Shown: positions 18,125-29,632 of the stretch, one piece after another
Layout: every line of letters starts with the position of its first letter
Position numbering within the stretch: position 1 is the stretch's first letter
NCBI RefSeq assembly: GCF_024296665.1
Contig: NZ_CP100762.1
Span: 2,046,001 to 2,110,000, forward strand
Reading direction: 5' to 3'
DNA: 64,000 bases
Origin: Salinilacihabitans rarus
GTDB taxonomy: Archaea > Halobacteriota > Halobacteria > Halobacteriales > Natrialbaceae
Program-made: the position numbers and the translations under genes
The notes under the pieces: model-generated
Databases searched by the model: none
Told to the model about the DNA's origin: nothing
What the model saw: only the letters and a program-made list of their open reading frames with translations

Positions 18125-19759
18125 TCAGAGCCCGCCGCGCCCGCCCTCCTGGGAGAGCAGGACGACCATCGAGAGCGCCGAGACCGCGAGCAACAGCAGC
18201 GAGGGGATCGCGGCGTACTGGAAGAACGCGCCCTCCTGGGCCTGCCAGACGAGCGTCACGAGCGTCTCGAACTCGTTGGGCCGGAGCAACAGCGTCACCG
18301 GCAGTTCCTTCATCGTGGTGAGGAAGACGAGCGCGGCGCCGGCGACGACCCCCGGCGCGATCAGCGGGAGGGTGACCGACCGGAAGGCGCGCAGCGGCGA
18401 CTTCCCGAGCGTCCGGGCGGCCTCGACGAGGCGGGGATCGACCTGCAGGGTCGTCGTGCGGATCGAGCCGACCGCCTGCGGCACGAAGCGGACGACGTAG
18501 GCGAAGACGAGCAGGGGGAGCGTCTGGTAGATCGGCGGCGCGTAGGGGAGGCCGAGCGCGTCGAACCGCGTGCCGAAGTAGACGAGCGCGAGTCCGAGGA
18601 CGACCCCGGGGACGGCGAAGCCGACGTAGGTCACCCGCTCGAACAGGTCGGCGAGGCGCGAGTCGGTCCGCGCGGCGAGGTAGGCGACCGGCAGCGCGGC
18701 GACGATGGCGACGAACGCGGCGGCGCCGGCGACCAGCACGGAGTTCGTCGCGTAGTGCAGTTCGAAGCCGAGTTGCGGGCGGGCGTTCGGGTCCGCGGTC
18801 ACGAGCCAGAGCCCGAGGATCCACAGCGGGACCGCCAGCGCGAGGCCGGCGACCGCCGCCGGCAGGAGCGTCGCCGGCCACCGCCACGCGCCGAGGGAGA
18901 CGACGGGGTCGGCGTCGCCGCCGACGCCGTCGCCGTGGATCGACTCGTCCCGGCGGACGCGCGATTCGAGCGCCAGCACGACGAGCACGATGGCGAGCAG
19001 TTGCAGCGAGAGCATCGCGGCGTAGTCGGCCGCGAACCGGTGGAACTCGACGAAGATCTGGCGGGTGAACACCGGCAGGCGCATGATCGCGGGCGTCCCG
19101 AAGTCGGAGACGGCGTACAGCGCCGCGAGCAGCGCACCGGCGACGATCGCGGGCTGGACGTGTGGCAGGGTCACCCGGCGAAACGCCCCCCACCGGCCGT
19201 GGTTGAGCGTCCGGGCGGCCTCGAGCAGCGTCGTGTCGAACGAGAGCAGCCCCGCCCGGACGGTGAGGTAGACGTACGGGTAGGTGTAGAGGGTGATGAC
19301 GAGGATCGCCCCCGGCAGGCCGTAGATCTCCGGCAGGCGCTCGATCCCGAGCGGTTCGAGGATCGACTGGAACTCGCCGCGGGGGCCGAACGCGGAGACG
19401 AACGCGAACGCCCCGATGTAGCTCGGGACGACCAGCGGGAGCGCGACGACGACCGACCAGAACCGCCGGAACGGCAGGTCGGTCTGGACGGTCAGCCACG
19501 CGAGCGGAACGCCGAGCAACACGGACAGAGCCGTCACGCCGGCCATCAGCAGGAGGCTGTTGACGACGACGTCGACGGTGGCCGGCCGGACCAGCATGGA
19601 CCACGCCCGGCCGAGGTCGACCGTCGCCGCCTCGACGACGAGCCACGTGAGGGGAAACAGCATGCTCGCGGCGACGGCGCCGGCAAGCAGCGTCAACCCG
19701 AGCGGAAGCTCGTCGGTACCGCTCGCGGAGCGTCGCAGCCGTCTGACGGTAGATTTCAT
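18125..19759 (-). CDS. Ferric iron-type ABC transporter permease (fused double permease)
   Basis: The 544-residue membrane protein has about 12 segments and two binding-protein-dependent permease domains in one chain, the layout of FbpB/SfuB iron(III) permeases; related thiamine permeases are built alike. Two EAA loops that contact the ATPase are visible, 'EAARTLNHGRWGAFRRVTLP' and 'EAARTLGKSPLRAFRSVTLP'. A matching binding protein is at 25118-26239, and no ATPase lies nearby. The start ATG (19759) is 84 bases from a palindromic iron-type operator shared with the divergent oxidoreductase operon. Confidence 0.88.
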   Translation of the reverse strand: MKSTVRRLRRSASGTDELPLGLTLLAGAVAASMLFPLTWLVVEAATVDLGRAWSMLVRPATVDVVVNSLLLMAGVTALSVLLGVPLAWLTVQTDLPFRRFWSVVVALPLVVPSYIGAFAFVSAFGPRGEFQSILEPLGIERLPEIYGLPGAILVITLYTYPYVYLTVRAGLLSFDTTLLEAARTLNHGRWGAFRRVTLPHVQPAIVAGALLAALYAVSDFGTPAIMRLPVFTRQIFVEFHRFAADYAAMLSLQLLAIVLVVLALESRVRRDESIHGDGVGGDADPVVSLGAWRWPATLLPAAVAGLALAVPLWILGLWLVTADPNARPQLGFELHYATNSVLVAGAAAFVAIVAALPVAYLAARTDSRLADLFERVTYVGFAVPGVVLGLALVYFGTRFDALGLPYAPPIYQTLPLLVFAYVVRFVPQAVGSIRTTTLQVDPRLVEAARTLGKSPLRAFRSVTLPLIAPGVVAGAALVFLTTMKELPVTLLLRPNEFETLVTLVWQAQEGAFFQYAAIPSLLLLAVSALSMVVLLSQEGGRGGL

Positions 19760-19833
19760 CGGTGAGAGGTCGTCGGGCGCGGCCGCCGGGGGCGACCGCG
19801 TCGCTCGATGTATCGACGGTCTCGTTCCAACGG

Positions 19834-19856
19834 GTATAAGGTTTAGGTTTGCCTAA
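19834..19856. promoter_or_regulatory. Promoter and DtxR-type operator 1 (divergent permease / oxidoreductase)
   Basis: GTATAAG at 19834-19840 is a TATA box for the plus-strand oxidoreductase operon, 26-32 bases before its ATG. TTAGGTTTGCCTAA (19843-19856) is a near-perfect palindrome between that TATA box and the start codon, so a bound repressor would cover the start site. The TATA box also reads TTATAC on the other strand and could serve the permease gene. Confidence 0.65.
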
Positions 19857-19865
19857 TCCCTCCGC

Positions 19866-20411
19866 ATGGAGCTGACCAGGCGCGACGCGGTCGCCGCGCT
19901 GGCCGCGGTCGGGGCCGGCGGCGCCGCCGCGGTCGGCGTCCGCCGGCGCGGCCGGCCCGACGGGGCCGTAGACGCCGGGGCCGACGCCGCCGACGACGAG
20001 ACGGTCCGCGAGACGCTCGTCGCCGCCGCCGAGGTCGTCTACCCGTCTAACGTGACCGGCGTCGAGGCGTTCGTCGAGGCGTTTCTCGACGGGCGACTCG
20101 CGGGCGAGCGCCACGCCGCGGGGCTTCGCGAGGCGGTCGCCGACCTCGACCGGCGCGCGGCGGCGTGGTACGGCGACGCCTTCGCCGCGCTGCCGGCGGC
20201 CGACCGCGACTCGCTGCTGGGCGAGGTCGGCGCCGACGCCGCGGCGGAAGACCCCGACGGGACGACCGCCGAGCGAGTCCGGTACTACGTCGTGAACGAC
20301 CTGCTGCTGGCGCTGTACGCCTCCCCGGCGGGCGGCGAACTGGTCGGGATCGAGAACCCGCAGGGCCACCCGGGCGGGACCGACACCTACCAGCGGGGGC
20401 CGTCGCCGTGA
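19866..20411 (+). CDS. Gluconate 2-dehydrogenase subunit 3-like protein (Tat exported)
   Basis: The 181-residue protein begins with a twin-arginine-like signal ('MELTRRDAVAALAAVGAGG') and continues as the helical small subunit found with membrane-bound FAD sugar-acid dehydrogenases ('LVAAAEVVYPSNVTGVEAFV', and 'RYYVVNDLLLALYASPAGGELVG' in part). This subunit carries the large subunit across the membrane on its Tat signal. The large subunit gene overlaps its stop codon by four bases. The third, cytochrome c, subunit of bacterial complexes is absent. An iron-type operator sits in its promoter. Confidence 0.83.
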   Translation: MELTRRDAVAALAAVGAGGAAAVGVRRRGRPDGAVDAGADAADDETVRETLVAAAEVVYPSNVTGVEAFVEAFLDGRLAGERHAAGLREAVADLDRRAAAWYGDAFAALPAADRDSLLGEVGADAAAEDPDGTTAERVRYYVVNDLLLALYASPAGGELVGIENPQGHPGGTDTYQRGPSP

Positions 20412-22039
20412 GCGGCGGTCGCCCGCCCGCCGAAGATACGGGGGTCGCGACGGACGCGGACGCCGACCGCACGCCCGTCGAGGGCGCCGACGTCTGCGTG
20501 ATCGGTGCGGGACCGGCCGGCGCGCTGGTCGCCGACCGCCTCGCCGCGGCCGGCCGCGAGGTCGTCGTCCTCGAAGCCGGGCCGCGGTTCGACCCCGTGG
20601 ATCGGCTCGCCCGTCAGGAGCGGGCCATCCGGCCGGCCTACGACCGGCCGGACGTCTGGGACGGCGACCCCGAACGGGACGCCCACTCGGCGTCGGGCGA
20701 GCGGTTCTACCCGCTGAACCACGCCCGCGTGAAGGGCGTCGGGGGGTCGACGCTGCACTGGCAGGGGATGGTGATGCGGCTGCACGAGGACGATTTCAAC
20801 TCCGCGAGCGCCCGCGGCGTCGGCGTCGACTGGCCGCTCGACTACGAGGACCTGCGGCCCTACTACGCCGCGGCGGAGCGCGAACTGGGCGTCGCCGGCG
20901 CCGACACCCCCTTCGGACCGCCCCGGGAGGAGCCCCACCCGATGCCCCCCTTCCCGCCCTCCTACAGCGACGGCCTGTTCGCCGAGGCCTGCGACGAACT
21001 CGGGATCGCGATGCACCCGGTACCCAACGCCCGCAACTCCGAGGCCTACGACGGCCGCAGCGCCTGCGTCGGCTACGGCACCTGCCAGCCCGTCTGTCCC
21101 GCCGGCGCGAAGTACGACGCCACGGTGCACGTAGAGCGCGCGGCGGAGCGAGGCGCGACGGTGATCGACCGCGCGCCGGTCCGGTACCTCGAACACGGCG
21201 CCGACCGGGTCGAAGCGGCCGTCTACGCGACCCCCGACGGCGAGCACCGACAGGAGGCCGACGCCTTCGTGCTCGCCTGCGGCGGCGTCGAGACGCCCCG
21301 CCTGCTGTTGCTCTCGGCGTCGGATCGGTATCCGGACGGGCTGGCCAATTCGAGCGGTCTCGTCGGTCGGTTCTTCATGGACCACCTATTCGCGGGGGTC
21401 GGCGGACGGCTGGACGAACCCACCCGCCAGAACCACGTCGGCTTCCTCACCAGCGAGTCCCACCAGTTCTACGACGACGCCGACGCGGAGGTCGGCCCGT
21501 TCAAACTCGAGTTCTTCAACTACGCCGGCCCCTCGCCCGTCGAACTGGCGCTGACCGGCGACGACTGGGGCGACGCCCTGCTCGACCGCCTCCGGGACGA
21601 GTACGGCACCCACGTCGCGGTGGGCGCGCTGGTCGAGCAACTCCCCCGCGAGGACAGCTACGTCGCGCTCGACCCCGAGCGCACCGACGACCGCGGCGAC
21701 CCCGTCCCGGACGTCCACTGGACCGTCGGCGAGCGTGCCCGGCGAACGATCGAACGGGCGAACGAGGTCCAGGCGGAGATCCTCGGGGAACTCGGCGCCG
21801 AGATCACGTGGCAGGTCGGCCCCGAGGACACGGGTCCCGCCTACCACCACATGGGGACGACCCGGATGGGGACGGATCCCGCCGAGAGCGTCGTCGGCCC
21901 CGACCTGCGCGCGCACGACCTCGAGAACCTGTGGGTCGCCTCCAGTTCGGTCTTCCCGACCGGCGGCGCGATGAACCCGACGCTGACGATCGCCGCGCTC
22001 GCGCTGAAGTGTGCAGACGCCGTCGAGGCGGCGCTGTGA
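20408..22039 (+). CDS. GMC-family FAD oxidoreductase (gluconate/choline dehydrogenase-like)
   Basis: This 543-residue flavoenzyme is the catalytic partner of the preceding small subunit. The N-terminal dinucleotide fold is 'CVIGAGPAGALVADRLA' at about residues 31-47; the FAD-contact loop is 'GVGGSTLHWQGMVMR'; four Cys in 'SACVGYGTCQPVCPAGAKYD' (partly) could bind a metal; and the C-terminal catalytic segment is 'AYHHMGTTRMG' with 'TGGAMNPTLTIAAL'. Its substrate is an alcohol, sugar or sugar acid, unknown here. It has no signal of its own and probably rides across the membrane with subunit 3. The GTG start overlaps the upstream stop (GTGA). Confidence 0.9.
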   Translation: MSGGRPPAEDTGVATDADADRTPVEGADVCVIGAGPAGALVADRLAAAGREVVVLEAGPRFDPVDRLARQERAIRPAYDRPDVWDGDPERDAHSASGERFYPLNHARVKGVGGSTLHWQGMVMRLHEDDFNSASARGVGVDWPLDYEDLRPYYAAAERELGVAGADTPFGPPREEPHPMPPFPPSYSDGLFAEACDELGIAMHPVPNARNSEAYDGRSACVGYGTCQPVCPAGAKYDATVHVERAAERGATVIDRAPVRYLEHGADRVEAAVYATPDGEHRQEADAFVLACGGVETPRLLLLSASDRYPDGLANSSGLVGRFFMDHLFAGVGGRLDEPTRQNHVGFLTSESHQFYDDADAEVGPFKLEFFNYAGPSPVELALTGDDWGDALLDRLRDEYGTHVAVGALVEQLPREDSYVALDPERTDDRGDPVPDVHWTVGERARRTIERANEVQAEILGELGAEITWQVGPEDTGPAYHHMGTTRMGTDPAESVVGPDLRAHDLENLWVASSSVFPTGGAMNPTLTIAALALKCADAVEAAL

Positions 22040-22055
22040 GTCCCCGACGGACCTG

Positions 22056-22073
22056 TTTTAGGTAAACCTAAAA
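22056..22073. promoter_or_regulatory. DtxR-type operator 2, perfect 18-bp palindrome
   Basis: TTTTAGGTAAACCTAAAA is a perfect palindrome. Its right end runs into AAAGTATAAG, the TATA box of the glycosyltransferase gene (ATG at 22105), so repressor binding would block TBP. The core matches the other four boxes in this block. Confidence 0.8.
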
Positions 22074-22104
22074 GTATAAGCCCGAGCGCTCGCAACGCCC
22101 GGTA

Positions 22105-22821
22105 ATGAGAGGACGCCTGACCCGCGGCGGCGCGGCCGCGGACGAGTACACCTTCGAGGACGTCAGCGTCGTGATGGGCACGTACAACGAGGAGGAAGCG
22201 ATCGGGACGGTGCTCTCGGACGTCGAGGAGGTGACCGACGGGAAAGCCGAGGTCGTCTGCGTCGACGGTTCCTCCGATCGGACCCCCGAAATCGCCCGCG
22301 AGCACGGCGCGACGGTGATCGAACAGGAGCCACGGGGCTACGGCGTCGCCGTCCGCGAGGCCATCCTCGCGCCCGACCGGCCGGTCGTCGTCACGACCGA
22401 CTGCGACGACACCTACCCGATGGAGCAACTGCCGGAGTTTCTCGCCCTCGTCAACGAAGGCTACGACGTCGTCAGCGGCGACCGCCTCTACCACGGCGCC
22501 GACGCGATGCCGGCGTTCAACCGGTCCGGGAACCACGCCTTCGCCGCCCTCGCGAGCGTCCTGATGGGCACCCGCGTCCACGACACCACGACCGGGATGC
22601 GCGCGTACCGCCGCGAGGTCGTCGAGTCGATCGAGTGGACCGAGAACACCGGCCTCTCCGCGGAACTGCTGATCCGGCCCCTGCTGCGCGGCTACGACGT
22701 CCGCGAGCACCCCATCGAGTACCGCGAGCGCGCCGGCGAGACGAAACTCGATCCGATCAAAGGCGGGGCCGCCATCGCGAAGTCGATCGTGAAGGTCTGT
22801 CTCGAAGAACGGGTCCGGTAG
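22105..22821 (+). CDS. Family 2 glycosyltransferase (dolichyl-phosphate sugar synthase-like)
   Basis: This 238-residue GT2 enzyme most resembles archaeal dolichyl-phosphate hexose synthases, which load a sugar on to a lipid carrier at the inner membrane face. Motifs: 'VVMGTYNEEEAIG' near residue 22, 'VDGSSDRTPEIA', the metal-binding 'TDCDDTYP', and the acceptor-side 'DTTTGMRAYRRE'. No transmembrane segment is present, unlike AglD-type enzymes; a separate flippase-like membrane gene lies at 27497-28612. Operator 2 in its promoter predicts induction in iron shortage. Confidence 0.88.
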   Translation: MRGRLTRGGAAADEYTFEDVSVVMGTYNEEEAIGTVLSDVEEVTDGKAEVVCVDGSSDRTPEIAREHGATVIEQEPRGYGVAVREAILAPDRPVVVTTDCDDTYPMEQLPEFLALVNEGYDVVSGDRLYHGADAMPAFNRSGNHAFAALASVLMGTRVHDTTTGMRAYRREVVESIEWTENTGLSAELLIRPLLRGYDVREHPIEYRERAGETKLDPIKGGAAIAKSIVKVCLEERVR

Positions 22822-22965
22822 TCGTCCGTTTCTAATCTCGTTTCGTCCCGCGGACGGTAGTCGAACGACCGGTCCCTCGTCGCGAAGCCACGGCGGGGAC
22901 ACGTCCGGAGCGACTCCCGCGACCGCTCACGCGTCGACCGCCCCGAGGTCGCGATGCCACGCCGG

Positions 22966-25107
22966 TCACCGCTCCTCGAGTCGCGTCTCGAACTCGGCCC
23001 ACGCCGGGTTGGCCTCGGGGTCGTCGGGGAGGTAGGTGCCCTCGCTCCCGCAGGCGGTCACGAGGGTGCAGACGGTCCGCTCGGGCGGCCAGACCGCCTC
23101 GACGCCGTCGTCGGTCGTCCGGACGGTCGCCACCTGACGGTAGGTGGCGGAACTCCCGTCCGGCTGGACCACCGTCACCGAGAGCGCCACCTCGTCGGTC
23201 CCGTTCGCGGGGACCGCCGCGGCGCCGTCGGGCGTCTCCAGTCGGGCCTCGCCGGGTTCGAGCGCCCAGTCGACGGCGACCGTCTCGCCGGGGTCGTCGA
23301 TCCCGTAGGTGGCGTACCCCGCGTCGGTCTCCAGCCTGACGGTCGCACGCGAGACGCGGTCGGGGACGGCGACGGTCGTCTCGCCCGCGAGCGACGCGCC
23401 CTCGCGGACCGCCAGCGGTTCGAGCGTCGGGACGACGCGGTCGTGTGGGTTCGGCGTCCACTCGCCGCGGTAGGCGTAGCGATAGACCGTCCGGTCGGGG
23501 TAGGCGTCGAGCACGGCGAAATCACCCGCGGGGCCGCGGTCGAGCGCGTAGACGACCTCGCCGTCGAGGTCCGGGTCGTTGCGCAGGGGCTGGAACGGGT
23601 GGTTCTGCCACGGCCCGTACGGCGTCGGGAGGAAGACCAGCGCGTCGTCGAGGTCGGTCTCCTCGAAGGGCTCGTAGGCCGCCTCGAACCGCTCGGTGTG
23701 GGCGGCGTTGCGTTCGAGCGGGGCCGCCACGGCGGCCGCGTTGGCCCCGCCGAGGACGAGCGCGCTCGCGACGAGCGCGGCGATGGCGACCCGCCGCGCG
23801 GCACCGGGCGAGGTCCGGGCGGCGAGGCGGTCGGGGAGCGTCCGCCAGCCGGTCACGAGCGCGAGCGCGGCGAAGATCGACAGCGGCGCCAGCAGGTCGA
23901 AGTGGTAGAACGGGCCGAACTGCGCGACGAGGCCGTCGGTCGGGTCCGAGAGCGTCGCGAGGACGTTGTAGTTGCCCCAGAAGGGGACGTTCCCGACGGG
24001 GACGGAGACGAGCAGGCCGGCGAGGAGGACGGGCGCGGGGTTCCGGCCGTCGCGACCCCGGCGCCACCGGCGCGCGGCGACCGCGAGGCCACAGAGCGCC
24101 GCGAGGGTGCCGAGCGCGCCCGCGGCGACCCACCGGGTCGCGAGGTACCGGAGGGCGTAGCCGTTCGCCCGCAGGGCGAGTTCGGGGGTGTACTCGATCG
24201 AGTGGCCGAGGATCCGCCGGCGGCCGAAGCCGGGGCCGTCCAGCGGCGCGAACGCCTCGTACGGAAAGAGCAGCGGCGACCCGGTGAGTCGGGCGTTGTA
24301 CGCGAGCGCGACGCCGACGAACGCGAGGCCGCCCGCGGCCGTGAGGGCGTTCCGCCGGACGGGGTCGGGCAGCGGGCGGACTCCCTCCCGGCGGAGCGAA
24401 CGGCCGACCGTCCAGAGCGCGTGGCAGACGAAGGGCGCGGCGAAGAGGACGGCGGTGTACGGCCGCGCGAAGAACGCGAGGCCGACGACGACGCCCGCGG
24501 CGGCCGCGCTCGGGAGCGACCCCTCGCGGACGCCCCGGAGGTAGCAGACGGCGAACGCGAGGTTCAGGAGGGTCGTCGGCGCGTACGGGAGGAACACCGA
24601 GGAGGTGAGCAGCGTCATCGGCGAGGCGGCGAACAGCGCCGCGGCGACGACGCCGACCCGGCGGTCGAACGCCGTCGCGCCGAGGACGTAGACGAGCGCG
24701 GCGTTGCCCGCGGCGACGAGCGCGAGCGTCACCCGCGGCTCGCCGAACAGCGCCATCGAGACGGCGTACGTCGCGGCCGGGACGGGCGCGTACTTGGGGT
24801 AGAGTCGGCCGCCGTCCGCGACGAAGAACCACGGCCGGAACGCGCCCGCGAGGTCGCCCGCGTGGAGTTCGAGTTGGCCGTCGAGCAGCATCGCCGCCTG
24901 CAGCAGGTAGACGGCCTCGTCGTCGTTGTTCGAGTGGTAGGGGAACAGCTCCGTCGCGAGCAGGAAGACGGCGAGGCCCGCGAGGACGGCGACCGCGGCC
25001 GCGTACGCCCGGTCGCGGCCCGGAGGGTCGCGGGCGCGGCGAACCGATCGTCGAACCGACCGGCGGAGGCGGGCGAGCGGACGCGGGCGGGGGTCGGACG
25101 GGGCCAC
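22966..25107 (-). CDS. GT-C type membrane glycosyltransferase (ArnT/PMT-like), unknown substrate
   Basis: The 713-residue protein has some 10-11 membrane segments in residues 40-460 and a beta-rich C-terminal domain (about 470-713) likely outside the cell. The first outer loop contains 'HSNNDDEAVYLLQ', the Asp-rich catalytic motif of GT-C enzymes that use lipid-linked sugars. It would transfer a sugar from a dolichol carrier to a surface acceptor. The gene begins ten bases after the stop of the iron-binding lipoprotein gene, so both share one iron-regulated promoter. The precise family is uncertain. Confidence 0.75.
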   Translation of the reverse strand: MAPSDPRPRPLARLRRSVRRSVRRARDPPGRDRAYAAAVAVLAGLAVFLLATELFPYHSNNDDEAVYLLQAAMLLDGQLELHAGDLAGAFRPWFFVADGGRLYPKYAPVPAATYAVSMALFGEPRVTLALVAAGNAALVYVLGATAFDRRVGVVAAALFAASPMTLLTSSVFLPYAPTTLLNLAFAVCYLRGVREGSLPSAAAAGVVVGLAFFARPYTAVLFAAPFVCHALWTVGRSLRREGVRPLPDPVRRNALTAAGGLAFVGVALAYNARLTGSPLLFPYEAFAPLDGPGFGRRRILGHSIEYTPELALRANGYALRYLATRWVAAGALGTLAALCGLAVAARRWRRGRDGRNPAPVLLAGLLVSVPVGNVPFWGNYNVLATLSDPTDGLVAQFGPFYHFDLLAPLSIFAALALVTGWRTLPDRLAARTSPGAARRVAIAALVASALVLGGANAAAVAAPLERNAAHTERFEAAYEPFEETDLDDALVFLPTPYGPWQNHPFQPLRNDPDLDGEVVYALDRGPAGDFAVLDAYPDRTVYRYAYRGEWTPNPHDRVVPTLEPLAVREGASLAGETTVAVPDRVSRATVRLETDAGYATYGIDDPGETVAVDWALEPGEARLETPDGAAAVPANGTDEVALSVTVVQPDGSSATYRQVATVRTTDDGVEAVWPPERTVCTLVTACGSEGTYLPDDPEANPAWAEFETRLEER

Positions 25108-25117
25108 GGGGTGCCGA

Positions 25118-26239
25118 TCAGGTGTCGATGCCGACCTCGCGCATGAGGTCGATCGTCGGTTCGAGGTCCGACAGTTGCGAGAGGTCGAGGTCCGGCACGT
25201 CGAGTTCGTCGATCGTGGGCAGGTCGCCGACGGGGTCGACCTCGGGGATCAGCGGGTACTCGAACGTCTCGACGGCGAAGTACTCCTGGGCCTCGGCCGA
25301 CAGCAGGTGGCGGACGAAGTTCGCCGCCAGTTCGGGGTCGTCGGCGGCGTCGAGGACGGCCGCGCCGGCGACGTCGAAGACCGCGCCCGCGTCGCCGTTC
25401 GTGAACGCCGTGTCGATGGGCGCGTCGGGCGAGCCGTCGAGGACGCGCTGGACGTAGTAGTGGTTGGTGAAGCCGGCGTCGATCTCGCCGTTGGCGATCG
25501 CCTGACAGATCGCGAACTCGTCGGGGTAGTCGCGGATGCCGGCGTCGACGACGCCTTCGAGCCACTCGCGGGTGGCCTCGGGCCCTTCGAGCAGGCGCAT
25601 CGCCGTGACGAAGCCCTGACAGGAGGGGTAGGAGGGCGCCCAGCCGAGGTCGGCGTCGAACTCGGGGAACGCCATGACGTCGTCGGGGACGTCGTCGGCG
25701 GAGAACGCGTCGGTGTTGTAGGGGACCGTCCGGGCGCGCCCGGAGGTGCCGATCCAGCGGTCGGTGCGGAACTCCTCGCGGACGAGGTCGAGGAGGTCGG
25801 CGGGGAGTTCGCGGGTGCGTCCCTCGTCGGCGAGCGTCCCGAGGCCGCCGGCGTCGACGGTGTAGAAGACGTCGGCGTTCGTCCCCTGACCCTCGTTGAG
25901 GATCTGGTTGACGAGGGTGCTCCCGTCGTCGTAGCGCGGGACGACGGTGAAGTCGTCGTAGAGGTCGTCGATGTAGCCGAGGAGTTCGTCGACGAGCAAC
26001 TTCCCCCGCCCGGAGTAGACGGTCAGTTCGCCCTCGAGGTCCGGCATCTCCTCCATCGACGTGCCCCCCGGCGGGTCGCGCCCCTCGCGGCCGGAGCCGA
26101 TCTGGCCGATCGACGAGTCGTCGTCCTCGCTGCCGATCAACCCGGTACAGCCAGCCAGCGAGACCGCTCCGAGCGCGGCCGAACCGGCGAGAAACCGCCG
26201 ACGGCCCGCGCGTCCGGCGGAGTCGTTTCGTCGCGTCAT
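25118..26239 (-). CDS. Ferric iron-type ABC transporter substrate-binding lipoprotein
   Basis: The 373-residue protein has a Tat signal ('GRRRFLAGSAALGAVSLAGC') with lipobox Cys, then an acidic linker, then an FbpA/SfuA-type binding fold ('LTVYSGRGKLLVDELLGYI'). The pair of neighbouring Tyr in 'FTNHYYVQR' corresponds to the ferric-ion tyrosines of FbpA. 'LSAEAQEYFA' near the C-terminus is another family mark. It probably delivers Fe3+ to the permease at 18125-19759. The operator at 26244-26259 lies between the TATA box (CCTATAAG, minus strand) and the ATG. It is the first gene of an operon with the GT-C transferase. Confidence 0.9.
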   Translation of the reverse strand: MTRRNDSAGRAGRRRFLAGSAALGAVSLAGCTGLIGSEDDDSSIGQIGSGREGRDPPGGTSMEEMPDLEGELTVYSGRGKLLVDELLGYIDDLYDDFTVVPRYDDGSTLVNQILNEGQGTNADVFYTVDAGGLGTLADEGRTRELPADLLDLVREEFRTDRWIGTSGRARTVPYNTDAFSADDVPDDVMAFPEFDADLGWAPSYPSCQGFVTAMRLLEGPEATREWLEGVVDAGIRDYPDEFAICQAIANGEIDAGFTNHYYVQRVLDGSPDAPIDTAFTNGDAGAVFDVAGAAVLDAADDPELAANFVRHLLSAEAQEYFAVETFEYPLIPEVDPVGDLPTIDELDVPDLDLSQLSDLEPTIDLMREVGIDT

Positions 26240-26243
26240 AGTT

Positions 26244-26273
26244 TTTAGGCTCGCCTAAATCAACTTATAGGCG
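26244..26273 (-). promoter_or_regulatory. Promoter and DtxR-type operator 3 (iron-binding protein operon)
   Basis: TTTAGGCTCGCCTAAA (26244-26259) is a perfect palindrome. The minus-strand TATA box CCTATAAG lies at 26266-26273, 30 bases before the ATG, so the operator covers the transcription start. Confidence 0.8.
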
Positions 26274-26287
26274 TCGGTTCGTGGCCG

Positions 26288-27484
26288 TCAGTCCGCCGTC
26301 GCGGGGACCGTCCGTTCGAGCGCGTCGAGGCAGGCCAGCCACTCGATCATGTACTCGCCGACGTAGTTGAGGAACGCGCCGTTGTTGTAGTCGGACCAGT
26401 CGCCGTCGCGGAGTTCGCGCGCCATCGCCTCGAAGACCGCGGCGTAGGAGTCGGCGCCGTCGGACGGCCCGGCCGTCCGACCGTCCCGTGGAACCGCCGG
26501 TTCCACGCCGTCGACTATCCGCCAGAGGTGTTCGTTGAGTTCGAGCCCCGGCACCTCGTTGTTGAGGTCGTCGAAGGTGCTTCGCGGGGCCTTGTTGTGT
26601 TCACACAGCGGGGCGCCGTTGTAGATGCGCTTGCCGAGGACGTCGCAGGCGCGCTTGAGGAAGACGCCGCTCCAGATGTCGTCGAACCGGCCGACGTCCC
26701 AGCGGTTGTCGTCCATCGGTAGCTGGTAGAAGGCGGGGATCACCTCGCGGCGGAACGCGAGGTTCATCGAGCAGACGGTGAGGTAGTTCCCGCGGGCGGC
26801 GACGAAGTCCTCGCCGAAGTCCTCGCGGGTCGTCCGGGTCCGGGCCTGTCCCTGCAGGTCGCCGTCCATGAGGATGCGCACGGCGTCGAGGTCGGGGACG
26901 TTCGTCCACAGCCCCTGCGAGGCGACGACCGCGCCCGATTCGACCTCGGCCGTCCCGGTTTCGACGGTCTCGCCCATCGCCGAGTAGGGGTAGCCCCGCG
27001 GGTAGAGGCCGTGTTCCGCTGCGTTCCGGTAGAGGACGTTGACCCAGTTTTCGTCCGAGGAGACCGCCTCGATCTCGCCCTCGAAGGCGAGGTTTTGCAT
27101 GTGCGTGCCGAAGAAGTCCACGTCCTCGTGCGGGAGGGTGTCGTCGTCGAGGAAGAAGCCGTACTCGAACTCGGGGTTCGCCCACATGTACAGCAGGCCG
27201 AAACTCGTCTCGGCGTGACTCGCCGCCGGGACGACGTGGGCGAACTCCGCGACGCCGTGGTCCTCGTACCACTCCTCGCGGCGCGTACCGTCGAAGACCT
27301 CGCCGGAGACCCCCTCCTCGTCGAGCATCGCCGCCATTTCTTCGGTCTCACAGAAGTCCTCGGTGACGAGGACGACGTGCAGCCGCGAGACGTCGAACCC
27401 GTGCTCGCGGGCGTTTCGGACGTACGAGCGCACGCACTCGTACTCCCGGATCGTCGGGACGATCACGCAGATATCCTGGCTCAT
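26288..27484 (-). CDS. Reversibly glycosylated polypeptide / UDP-arabinopyranose mutase-like (GT75) protein
   Basis: The 398-residue cytoplasmic protein matches the RGP family known from plants, which self-glycosylate and interconvert UDP-arabinopyranose and UDP-arabinofuranose. Signs: N-terminal 'CVIVPTIREYECV', the metal-binding 'GFFLDDDTLPHED', 'GLWTNVPDLDAVR', 'CSMNLAFRREVIPAFYQLP' (part) and 'RFDDIWSGVF'. In this setting it may make an unusual sugar nucleotide or act as a transferase for a surface glycan. Operator 4 lies 18 bases before its ATG. The flippase-like gene ends 12 bases upstream, so it can be read from two promoters. Confidence 0.8.
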   Translation of the reverse strand: MSQDICVIVPTIREYECVRSYVRNAREHGFDVSRLHVVLVTEDFCETEEMAAMLDEEGVSGEVFDGTRREEWYEDHGVAEFAHVVPAASHAETSFGLLYMWANPEFEYGFFLDDDTLPHEDVDFFGTHMQNLAFEGEIEAVSSDENWVNVLYRNAAEHGLYPRGYPYSAMGETVETGTAEVESGAVVASQGLWTNVPDLDAVRILMDGDLQGQARTRTTREDFGEDFVAARGNYLTVCSMNLAFRREVIPAFYQLPMDDNRWDVGRFDDIWSGVFLKRACDVLGKRIYNGAPLCEHNKAPRSTFDDLNNEVPGLELNEHLWRIVDGVEPAVPRDGRTAGPSDGADSYAAVFEAMARELRDGDWSDYNNGAFLNYVGEYMIEWLACLDALERTVPATAD

Positions 27485-27496
27485 CTGGCTGCCCGA

Positions 27497-28612
27497 CTAT
27501 CTTTTAGGCGAGCCTAAAAATCTGCCGGTCCCCGTCTCGGCCTCGCGATCGGCCGCCGACGGGGAGATGCCGAGCGCGGCGACCGCGCCCGCGCCGCCGA
27601 CGAGCGTCACCGCGTTCTTCAGCGCGTGGTCGACCACCGCGGCCGCCAGCGCCGTGCTCGCGCCGACGGGGGTGAGGCCGACGACCAGCGCGGTGAACGC
27701 CGCCTCGTAGAGGCCGACGCCGCCCTGCGAGAGCGGCAACACCTTCGCGAGGTTGCCGACGCTCACCGCGAGCGCGCCGACGGCGAGCAGGGGGCCGGCC
27801 GCGAGGCCGCTGTCGAGCGCCGCGAGCACCAGCACGGCGGTGAGGACGTCGAGCGCCCAGACGAGGAGGCTCCCCGCGCCGACGACGACCATCGCCCGCG
27901 GGTTCCGCGCGACGACGGCTACGGTCCGGGCGAACCGGAGGGCGGCCTCGACCGGGCCGCGAAGCCGCGGGAACCGCGAGCACCGCGCCCGGAGGCCCGC
28001 CCCGAGCGGGCGGTCCGACCGGGCGACGACGACGGTGGCGGCCCCCAGCGTCAGGGTCGTCGCGGTCACGCCCCCCGCGGCAGCCAGCGCCGTCCGCGCG
28101 CCGCCGGCCTCGCCGGCGAGGGCGAGCGGCCCCGCGTCGCCGGCGAGGGCGAGCCAGCACGTCGCCGCCCCCGCGAGCGTCGCGATCGCCGCGAGGTCGA
28201 AGCCCCGCTCGACGGCCAGCGAGGCGGCCCCCGCGGGGTACGGCACGTCCCGGCGGGCGTTCATCGCGTACGCGCGGACGCCGTCGCCCGCCCGCGCCGG
28301 GAGCGCGAGGTTCCCCGTCTGGCTGAGGAAGACGACCAGCGTGAGAAACCCCGTCCCGGTCGGGTGACCGATCGCCGCCAGCACGTCGCCGTACCGGCGG
28401 CCCCGCAGCGGCCACGAGACGGCGTAGACGCAGACGGCGGCGGCGAGGAGCGCGGGGTCGGCGCCCGAGACCTCGGCGGCGACCGCCCGGAGGTCGACCT
28501 CACGGAGCGCGACCAGCAGGCCGGCGAAGACGAGGACCGTCCCCGCGAGCGCCACCCGCCGGCGCGTCAGCGCGGCCCGGAGTCGGTTCGATCGGTCGCC
28601 CGCCTCGTCCAT
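27497..28612 (-). CDS. UPF0104/AglD-C-type flippase-like membrane protein
   Basis: This 371-residue protein has about eight hydrophobic segments and resembles the lysylphosphatidylglycerol synthase transmembrane (UPF0104) family, seen beside glycosyltransferases and proposed to move lipid-linked intermediates. Family features are 'WPLRGRRYGDVLAAIG', 'LALPARAGDGVRAYAM', 'AVERGFDLAAI' and the late 'LPLSQGGVGLYEAAF'. Its final codons (AGA TTT TTA GGC TCG CCT AAA AGA) overlap the operator of the next gene and use codons that are otherwise rare here. Its own promoter has an imperfect iron-type operator over the TATA box. Confidence 0.82.
   Translation of the reverse strand: MDEAGDRSNRLRAALTRRRVALAGTVLVFAGLLVALREVDLRAVAAEVSGADPALLAAAVCVYAVSWPLRGRRYGDVLAAIGHPTGTGFLTLVVFLSQTGNLALPARAGDGVRAYAMNARRDVPYPAGAASLAVERGFDLAAIATLAGAATCWLALAGDAGPLALAGEAGGARTALAAAGGVTATTLTLGAATVVVARSDRPLGAGLRARCSRFPRLRGPVEAALRFARTVAVVARNPRAMVVVGAGSLLVWALDVLTAVLVLAALDSGLAAGPLLAVGALAVSVGNLAKVLPLSQGGVGLYEAAFTALVVGLTPVGASTALAAAVVDHALKNAVTLVGGAGAVAALGISPSAADREAETGTGRFLGSPKR
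27502..27519. promoter_or_regulatory. DtxR-type operator 4, inside the 3' end of the flippase-like gene
   Basis: TTTTAGGCGAGCCTAAAA is a perfect palindrome, 18 bases before the ATG of the GT75-like gene on the minus strand. It lies within the last eight codons of the upstream gene, giving the GT75-like gene its own iron-controlled promoter. Confidence 0.78.
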
Positions 28613-28633
28613 GCACGAGCGGTTCGAGCGCAG

Positions 28634-28653
28634 ATATTTAAGCCCACCTAAAA
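28634..28653 (-). promoter_or_regulatory. Promoter and imperfect DtxR-type operator 5 (flippase-like gene)
   Basis: On the minus strand TTTTAGGTGGGCTTAAAT (28636-28653) matches the block's palindrome with two mismatches in the right arm, which runs into the TATA element CTTAAATATC. The ATG is 25 bases beyond the TATA centre, so the transcript is leaderless and repressor and TBP would compete. Confidence 0.65.
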
Positions 28654-28702: not shown

Positions 28703-29632
28703 TCAGCGGAGTTCGGCGACCAGTTCGCGCGCGGCCCGGCGGACGGCCTCGTCGCTCGACAGGGCGGGTTCCCAGCCGAGCGCGGCGAGTTTCTCGATGG
28801 AGAGGCGCATCTTCGGCACGTCGCCGGTCCAGCCGCGGTCGCCGCCGGTGTACTCGTAGTCGGGGTCGAGGCCCATCTCGTCGGCGACGATGGCCGCGAT
28901 TCGGTCGACCGAGGTCGTCGTCCGCGTCCCGAGGTTGTAGGTGTTCATCGCGTCGTCCGCGTGCGCGACGACGTGGCACATCGCGTCGACGCAGTCGGTG
29001 ACGTGCAGGTAGGACTTCTCCTGACGGCCGTCGCCGAGGATCGTCAGCGTCTCGGGGTCGTCGCGGAGTTTCTCGACGAAGTCGGGGATCACGGCCCCGC
29101 GCAGGCCCGGCCCGACGACGTTCGCGAACCGAACGTTCCAGACGGTGAGGTCGTGGCTGTGTGCGCGCGCCGAGAGCAGTCCCTCGTCGGCGAGTTTGCT
29201 CGCGCCGTAGGCGCTGATCGGTTCGAGCGGCGCGTAGTCCTCGGGAGTGGGCCGGGGCGCCTCGCCGTAGACCGTCGACGAGGAGGTGTAGGCGACCTCG
29301 GTCACGCCCGCCTCGGCCATCGCCTCCAGTACCTCGCGGGTCATCCGGGTGTTGTCCTCGAACTGACCGTGCGGGCGGTCCGTGTCGACGACCTTCGACG
29401 CCGCGAGGTGCCAGACGCGGTCGACGCCGTCGAGGAGGCCGTCGAGCGCGCCGGGGTCGGTCAGGTCCGCCTCGACGAACCGGGCCCCCCCGGGCACCCG
29501 CTCGCGCGAGCCGTTCGAGCAGTCGTCGACGACCGTCACGTCGACCCCGTCGTCGAGCAACCGCTCGACGAGGTGCGAGCCGACGAACCCCGCGCCGCCG
29601 GTGACGAGCGCGCGGCGATCCGAGCCGTTCAT
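28703..29632 (-). CDS. NAD-dependent epimerase/dehydratase (UDP-glucose 4-epimerase-like)
   Basis: This 309-residue short-chain extended dehydrogenase acts on a nucleotide sugar. The NAD fold is 'ALVTGGAGFVGSHLVERLL' at residues 7-25; the catalytic set is 'YTSSSTVYGEA' and 'YGASK' (YxxxK). The substrate-side 'RFANVVGPGLRG' and 'DGRQEKSYLHVTD' are typical of GalE-like enzymes. The ATG at 29632 gives MNGSDRRALVTGG. It lies upstream of the flippase-like gene on the same strand but outside the operator-bearing block, so it supplies precursors without obvious iron control. A GTTAAC element at about 29656-29661 and a TTTATATG at 29728-29735 (minus strand) are promoter candidates. Confidence 0.9.
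   Translation of the reverse strand: MNGSDRRALVTGGAGFVGSHLVERLLDDGVDVTVVDDCSNGSRERVPGGARFVEADLTDPGALDGLLDGVDRVWHLAASKVVDTDRPHGQFEDNTRMTREVLEAMAEAGVTEVAYTSSSTVYGEAPRPTPEDYAPLEPISAYGASKLADEGLLSARAHSHDLTVWNVRFANVVGPGLRGAVIPDFVEKLRDDPETLTILGDGRQEKSYLHVTDCVDAMCHVVAHADDAMNTYNLGTRTTTSVDRIAAIVADEMGLDPDYEYTGGDRGWTGDVPKMRLSIEKLAALGWEPALSSDEAVRRAARELVAELR

Follow-up and report, generated by a model that had tools for sequence, protein, structure and literature searches.

The 64,000-nucleotide stretch of the Salinilacihabitans rarus genome analysed here (contig NZ_CP100762.1, positions 2,046,001 to 2,110,000; hereafter the window) carries a short palindromic box that recurs at the promoters of a ferric ATP-binding cassette (ABC) transporter and of glycan genes. 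We consider it probable, at about 0.82, that this box marks a haloarchaeal iron regulon in which a DtxR-family repressor would control the transporter together with an obligate pathway of three glycan enzymes, namely a GT75 protein, a GT2 dolichyl-phosphate hexose transferase and a GT-C membrane transferase. The case is built on the boxes and their conservation across the order, on the iron genes that share them, on the joint inheritance of the three enzymes and on their intact active sites.

A box shared by ferric transport and glycan genes

Defined as the 14-bp core TTAGGYNNRCCTAA and counted in the window with up to two mismatches, the motif occurs six times where 0.71 occurrences are expected, a number reached in none of 100 shuffles. 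Four sites match exactly (boxes 1 to 4 in Table 1) and lie within 10.5 kb of each other (Poisson P ~3e-8), whereas the fifth, TTAAGCCCACCTAA, carries one mismatch and is an imperfect palindrome, in a form kept identically in related genomes. A first-pass annotation, made from the letters alone, had described five palindromes, four of them at or next to a TATA box or expected start site; all five are real and lie at promoters, but the fifth is not perfect, and the start positions assigned to them, although they mark the right sites, were off by zero to two bases. Its seven transcription units are instead six, served by five boxes, and its gene list was borne out (BPD permease, Gluconate_2-dh3 plus GMC, GT2, GT-C, FbpA-type binding protein, GT75 and UPF0104). 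The genome-wide motif scan that it had suggested returned 10 exact sites in 3,622,565 bases, several of them at iron genes, and five more with one mismatch; the reversed pattern yielded eight per strand, as compared with 15 for the motif. Taken alone, the one-mismatch sites are individually weak and not significant, and it is the company they keep that counts. Across related loci totalling 768 kb, exact TTAGG-N4-CCTAA was found at 120 sites and six control palindromes at none, so that chance palindromes are ruled out by the shuffles, the Poisson probability and the controls alike.

How faithfully is the box retained? Among 41 syntenic loci (that of the window and 40 others, each taken from a different genome of the order, one mismatch being allowed), it stands upstream of GT75 in 40 of 41, of the ferric-binding protein in 39 of 41, of GT2 in 29 of 32, of UPF0104 in 11 of 11, of Gluconate_2-dh3 in 12 of 19 and of the permease, when this heads its own unit, in 8 of 37. 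No box was found in these loci before the operon-internal GT-C (0/41), GMC (0/14) or thermosome (0/2) genes. The box and its spacing to the TATA box are conserved within flanking DNA that has otherwise diverged, and each gene class keeps a fixed register, as the promoter placement originally claimed would have it: for the binding protein and Gluconate_2-dh3 the TATA box comes first, 8-11 nt ahead of the box, for GT2 it comes 17-18 nt after the start of the box, and for UPF0104 and apparently GT75 the box lies over the TATA box itself. Such positions would fit repression, either of access by the TATA-binding protein (TBP) and transcription factor B (TFB) or of initiation. The GT2 boxes often read TTTGG(C/T)(A/G)AACCTAA (loci L261, L262, L270 and L272-L274), an asymmetric variant that is retained from family to family and suggests a graded or different affinity.

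The identity of the box is indicated by the other genes that carry it. In the organism's own genome, exact sites lie before the gene of a Peripla_BP_2 (FhuD-like) lipoprotein, where two boxes stand in tandem, and before that of an ABC ATPase with a TOBE domain, which is the ATPase absent from the ferric cluster of the window; FeoA-FeoB and the ferritin-like DpsA each have a one-mismatch site upstream. A motif scan of a wide collection returned mostly unrelated bacteria, and its haloarchaeal rows alone were used. There, in named haloarchaea, an exact TTAGGCTCGCCTAA or a nearby exact box lies before the siderophore diaminobutyrate transaminase gene (dat), genes of FhuD-like proteins and a FecCD permease gene, and likewise before the Gluconate_2-dh3/GMC pair of Halobacterium salinarum. 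Because FeoAB, DpsA, FhuD, FecCD, dat and the ferric-type ATPase carry it, we regard it as a haloarchaeal iron box, in keeping with the earlier reading of the palindromes as iron-type operators. As for its regulator, the genome encodes two DtxR-family proteins, each combining PF01325 with PF02742, and the best NCBIfam matches of the 226-residue one are MntR-like and below cut-off.

Several further occurrences deserve mention in their own right. The dpsA box (position 472074 of the genome) lies well upstream of the TATA box, unlike those of the uptake and glycan genes, a position compatible with the same regulator acting as an activator of iron storage. A DUF5059 protein with a plastocyanin-type copper domain is boxed in two distant haloarchaea, the present one (exact, at 25404) and Halorutilus (L021:321), and constitutes a conserved, uncharacterised member of the iron regulon. 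Exact boxes also occur in the own genome before a gene for an S-adenosylmethionine-dependent methyltransferase (at 2416626) and between a small open reading frame and a macro-domain-like gene (L002:1501-1514), the latter having an exact box about 100 nt upstream in Natronorubrum (L112:643-656) as well. In locus L135, a short DtxR-family protein of 143 residues (1438-1869) adjoins a 164-residue protein (1952-2446) with a weak match to the ferritin-like DUF892.

Three glycan enzymes inherited together

The glycan genes were placed in the regulon by the first-pass annotation, and the boxes that they own across the order uphold that placement, most clearly where GT2 sits at the margin of the transporter locus or apart from it: in 18 of 18 such genomes, which include three Haloferax, Halorubrum and Halogranum, the displaced gene has a box of its own, often in the TTTGGCRAACCTAA form. 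GT75, GT2 and GT-C (recognised by DUF7846) occur in an identical set of genomes, 78 out of 117, and in a second sample of 145 genomes, partly overlapping the first, GT75 and DUF7846 coincide in 115; among 14 control genomes, a DUF7846 match was present in Haloferax volcanii alone. Twenty transporter loci from genomes lacking GT75 contain the binding protein, nearly always the permease and in most cases a box, and GT75, GT2 and GT-C are absent from all 20. In the usual layout, exemplified by H. salinarum, a boxed GT75 gene accompanies a boxed operon running from FbpA through permease and ATPase to GT-C, with a convergent GT2 gene under its own box; in the window, permease and ATPase have been relocated and each has retained its box. 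The conserved core consists of GT75, GT2 and GT-C, with the UPF0104 protein and the GMC pair as optional additions. UPF0104 was considered for the core and set aside, being boxed in every syntenic locus that has it yet present in some lineages only.

The core genes are occasionally duplicated. A second, more diverged GT75 copy exists in Halorutilus (L234:8748), with no box nearby, and in one further genome (G011:C38:6266), and GT-C with DUF7846 is duplicated nearly side by side in a few genomes (L190:8844-13998; G099:C40; G201:C3).

What would these enzymes do? The nearest solved relatives of GT75 are the nucleoside diphosphate (NDP)-pyranose mutase MtdL and UDP-arabinopyranose mutase. Read by alignment to MtdL (PMC9937993), it retains equivalents of the DDD motif, the sugar-accepting arginine, Asp195, Ser228, Arg257, Asp260 and His287, and its own D113-115 (DDD), Arg163, Asp198, Ser239, Arg266, Asp269 and His296 are kept in 40 of 40 orthologues; the mutase features among them are the acceptor arginine (R163), the base aspartate (D269) and the Mn-binding histidine (H296). 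The probable reaction of GT75 is the isomerisation of an NDP-sugar to the furanose. GT2, with 238 residues, is related to dolichyl-phosphate (DolP)-mannose synthase and scores 415.7 bits against the NF041391 profile (cut-off 375). GT-C combines PMT_2 with DUF7846 and has an invariant acidic pair, D63 and E64, after its first membrane span; its AlphaFold model (pLDDT 83) matches the folds of AglB, ArnT, AftA/EmbB, ALG9/12 and Pmt4, and the modelled fold confirms the GT-C class and leaves the sugar unspecified. Outside the trio, the best PDB matches of the binding protein are ferric-binding proteins (7w3w, E=9e-49; 4elo, E=1e-41), and its N259-H260-Y261-Y262, with the paired tyrosine ligands, is nearly invariant. 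The GMC protein has conserved cysteines (Cys220, Cys226 and Cys230), arranged as for a putative iron-sulphur cluster. The epimerase/dehydratase gene next to UPF0104 has its own box in one of nine loci, and a supply of donor sugar is its possible role.

Table 1. Iron boxes, TATA boxes and genes of the locus (window coordinates)
Feature	Position	Strand	Sequence	Remarks
Iron box 1	19843..19856		TTAGGTTTGCCTAA	Common to divergent permease (-) and Gluconate_2-dh3/GMC (+) units
TATA box	8 nt before iron box 1	+	GTATAAGG	On + side
Iron box 2	22058..22071		TTAGGTAAACCTAA	Directly precedes TATA AGTATAAG of GT2 gene
Iron box 3	26245..26258		TTAGGCTCGCCTAA	Between TATA and ATG, ferric-binding-protein/GT-C operon
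Iron box 4	27504..27517		TTAGGCGAGCCTAA	Overlaps GT75 gene promoter and UPF0104 gene 3' end
Iron box 5	28638..28651		TTAAGCCCACCTAA	One mismatch; overlaps UPF0104 gene TATA
Ferric-type ABC permease	18125..19759	-		Two BPD_transp_1 stretches
Gluconate_2-dh3 subunit	19866..20411	+		N-terminal signal; optional regulon member
GMC oxidoreductase	20408..22039	+		Among solved structures, closest to glucose and fructose dehydrogenases with FAD
GT2, dolichyl-phosphate hexose transferase (NF041391)	22105..22821	+		Core of glycan trio
GT-C transferase (PMT_2 + DUF7846)	22966..25107	-		Last in ferric operon; core of trio
Ferric-binding lipoprotein, FbpA type	25118..26239	-		N-H-Y-Y metal motif conserved
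GT75 (RGP family)	26288..27484	-		Main NDP-pyranose-mutase catalytic residues; core of trio
UPF0104 / LPG_synthase_TM flippase-like membrane protein	27497..28612	-		Optional member
NAD-dependent sugar epimerase/dehydratase	28703..29623	-		Adjoins UPF0104 gene in some relatives

The proposed circuit and its competitors

Under the regulon model, a DtxR-family repressor would sit on or beside the TATA box when iron is plentiful, blocking TBP and TFB, and would leave when iron is low, so that every unit is turned on at once. The transporter of the regulon would consist of the FbpA-type binding protein, permease and ATPase. At the same time, GT75 would convert an NDP-sugar to an NDP-furanose, GT2 would then load the sugar on dolichyl phosphate, the resulting dolichyl-phosphate-sugar would be flipped across the membrane (perhaps by the boxed UPF0104 protein in some lineages), and GT-C would transfer the sugar to an acceptor outside, with the sugar dehydrogenase (Gluconate_2-dh3 plus GMC) taking part in some lineages. 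For the regulatory part of this scheme the sequence support is good; that the sugar is a furanose, what accepts it and what the glycan is for are predictions.

Some points weigh against this model. The regulator of the box is a predicted one, and DtxR-family proteins can sense manganese. Many GT2 boxes carry one mismatch (the TTTGGCRAACCTAA form), and binding may be weaker there. Three substrate-side residues of MtdL, Gln229, Arg289 and His292, are replaced in GT75. Finally, related genomes share history, and the box counts are not independent events.

What, then, could the glycan be for? It is quite possible that its genes belong to the iron regulon and that the glycan has no part in acquiring iron, serving instead to re-coat the surface or to glycosylate transport proteins exposed during starvation, for instance against viruses or for adhesion. 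A pathway made of a polyprenyl-phosphate-sugar and a GT-C enzyme ends on an outside acceptor, and AepG, a relative of GT2, makes an acidic exopolysaccharide (PMC9943897); on the other side, GT-C is closely tied to the ferric operon, which points to a part in uptake without proving it. A more tentative proposal, which we hold with some doubt, is that the glycan forms an arm of iron acquisition, in which a surface glycan or glycoconjugate derived by the trio from polyprenyl phosphate, and probably furanosyl, would bind ferric iron or pass it to the FbpA-type transporter, the sugar dehydrogenase adding acidic chelating groups in some lineages.

It is improbable that the DtxR-family regulator senses another metal, such as manganese, or another signal, such as oxidative stress, and that the glycan genes are consequently not iron genes. 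The MntR-like, sub-threshold matches of the 226-residue protein and the fact that DpsA is also a stress protein speak for it; against it stand the genes that follow the box, those of siderophore synthesis, FeoAB, FhuD, FecCD and ferric ABC transport. Still less probable, and largely refuted already, is that the boxes serve the ferric transporter alone and the glycan genes hitchhike as neighbours on iron promoters: GT-C does sit inside the transporter operon and lacks a box of its own, and most loci are compact, but GT75 and GT2 own boxes, the trio is co-inherited exactly while transporters occur without it, and hitchhiking is rejected because displaced GT2 genes keep their box without exception.

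Related systems and implications

Actinobacterial DtxR/IdeR boxes are palindromes of the TTAGG...CCTAA type used by DtxR-family regulators; the boxes of the window are alike in palindrome type and differ in having a 14-bp core at archaeal TATA/BRE (TFB-recognition element) positions. Closer at hand, the haloarchaeal DtxR-type regulons (Idr1, Idr2 and SirR in Halobacterium; Idr, SirR and TroR, with the ferR signal, in Haloferax) likewise have a palindromic box in front of genes for iron uptake, siderophores and ferritin-like proteins, and PMC11349517 cites the three DtxR proteins as well as the ferR signal ahead of fhu genes. During iron starvation of Hfx. volcanii, the UPF0104 protein HVO_1859 (up 11.6-fold) and the GalE-family protein HVO_0655 (+12.7) are among the most induced (PMC11349517). 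Neither could be tied to genes of the window, and the UPF0104 protein described here is not equated with HVO_1859, because its best relatives in Haloferax, Halobacterium, Halorussus and Halogranum are long frames (619-711 residues) with no box nearby. An iron-regulated archaeal glycan pathway was not found in the literature searched, and the regulon tables of Schmid 2011, Leyn & Rodionov 2015 and Martinez Pastor 2017/2024 might list glycan genes.

Among the enzymes, the GT75 NDP-pyranose mutases (MtdL and plant UAM/RGP) are alike in sequence and catalytic residues, apart from the three substrate-side differences. The mycobacterial polyprenyl-phosphate-arabinofuranose system, with its GT-C enzymes Emb and Aft, also uses a lipid-phosphate sugar outside the membrane; here the furanose is predicted from GT75, and the GT-C fold is about as close to those of AglB, ArnT and ALG9; the likeness is one of analogy and not of membership. 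AepG, the DolP-glucuronosyltransferase behind the acidic exopolysaccharide of Haloarcula hispanica, which has been likened to HVO_1613 (PMC9943897), is similarly a GT2 dolichyl-phosphate sugar synthase outside N-glycosylation; it has two C-terminal membrane spans, lies in an agl-type cluster (HAH_1202-1214) and has no reported iron link. An identification of the 238-residue GT2 of the window with AepG was not adopted; its gene lies in an iron cluster and not in one of the agl type.

The regulon would give a functional context to three glycan enzymes, so far uncharacterised, whose co-inheritance in haloarchaea, model genera included, is perfect, and would link envelope glycans to iron status in archaea. 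The module is present in H. salinarum and Haloferax, where the link is directly testable. The box shared with iron-uptake genes and the joint inheritance of the three enzymes suggest that synthesis of a surface sugar coat is part of the iron-starvation response of haloarchaea.

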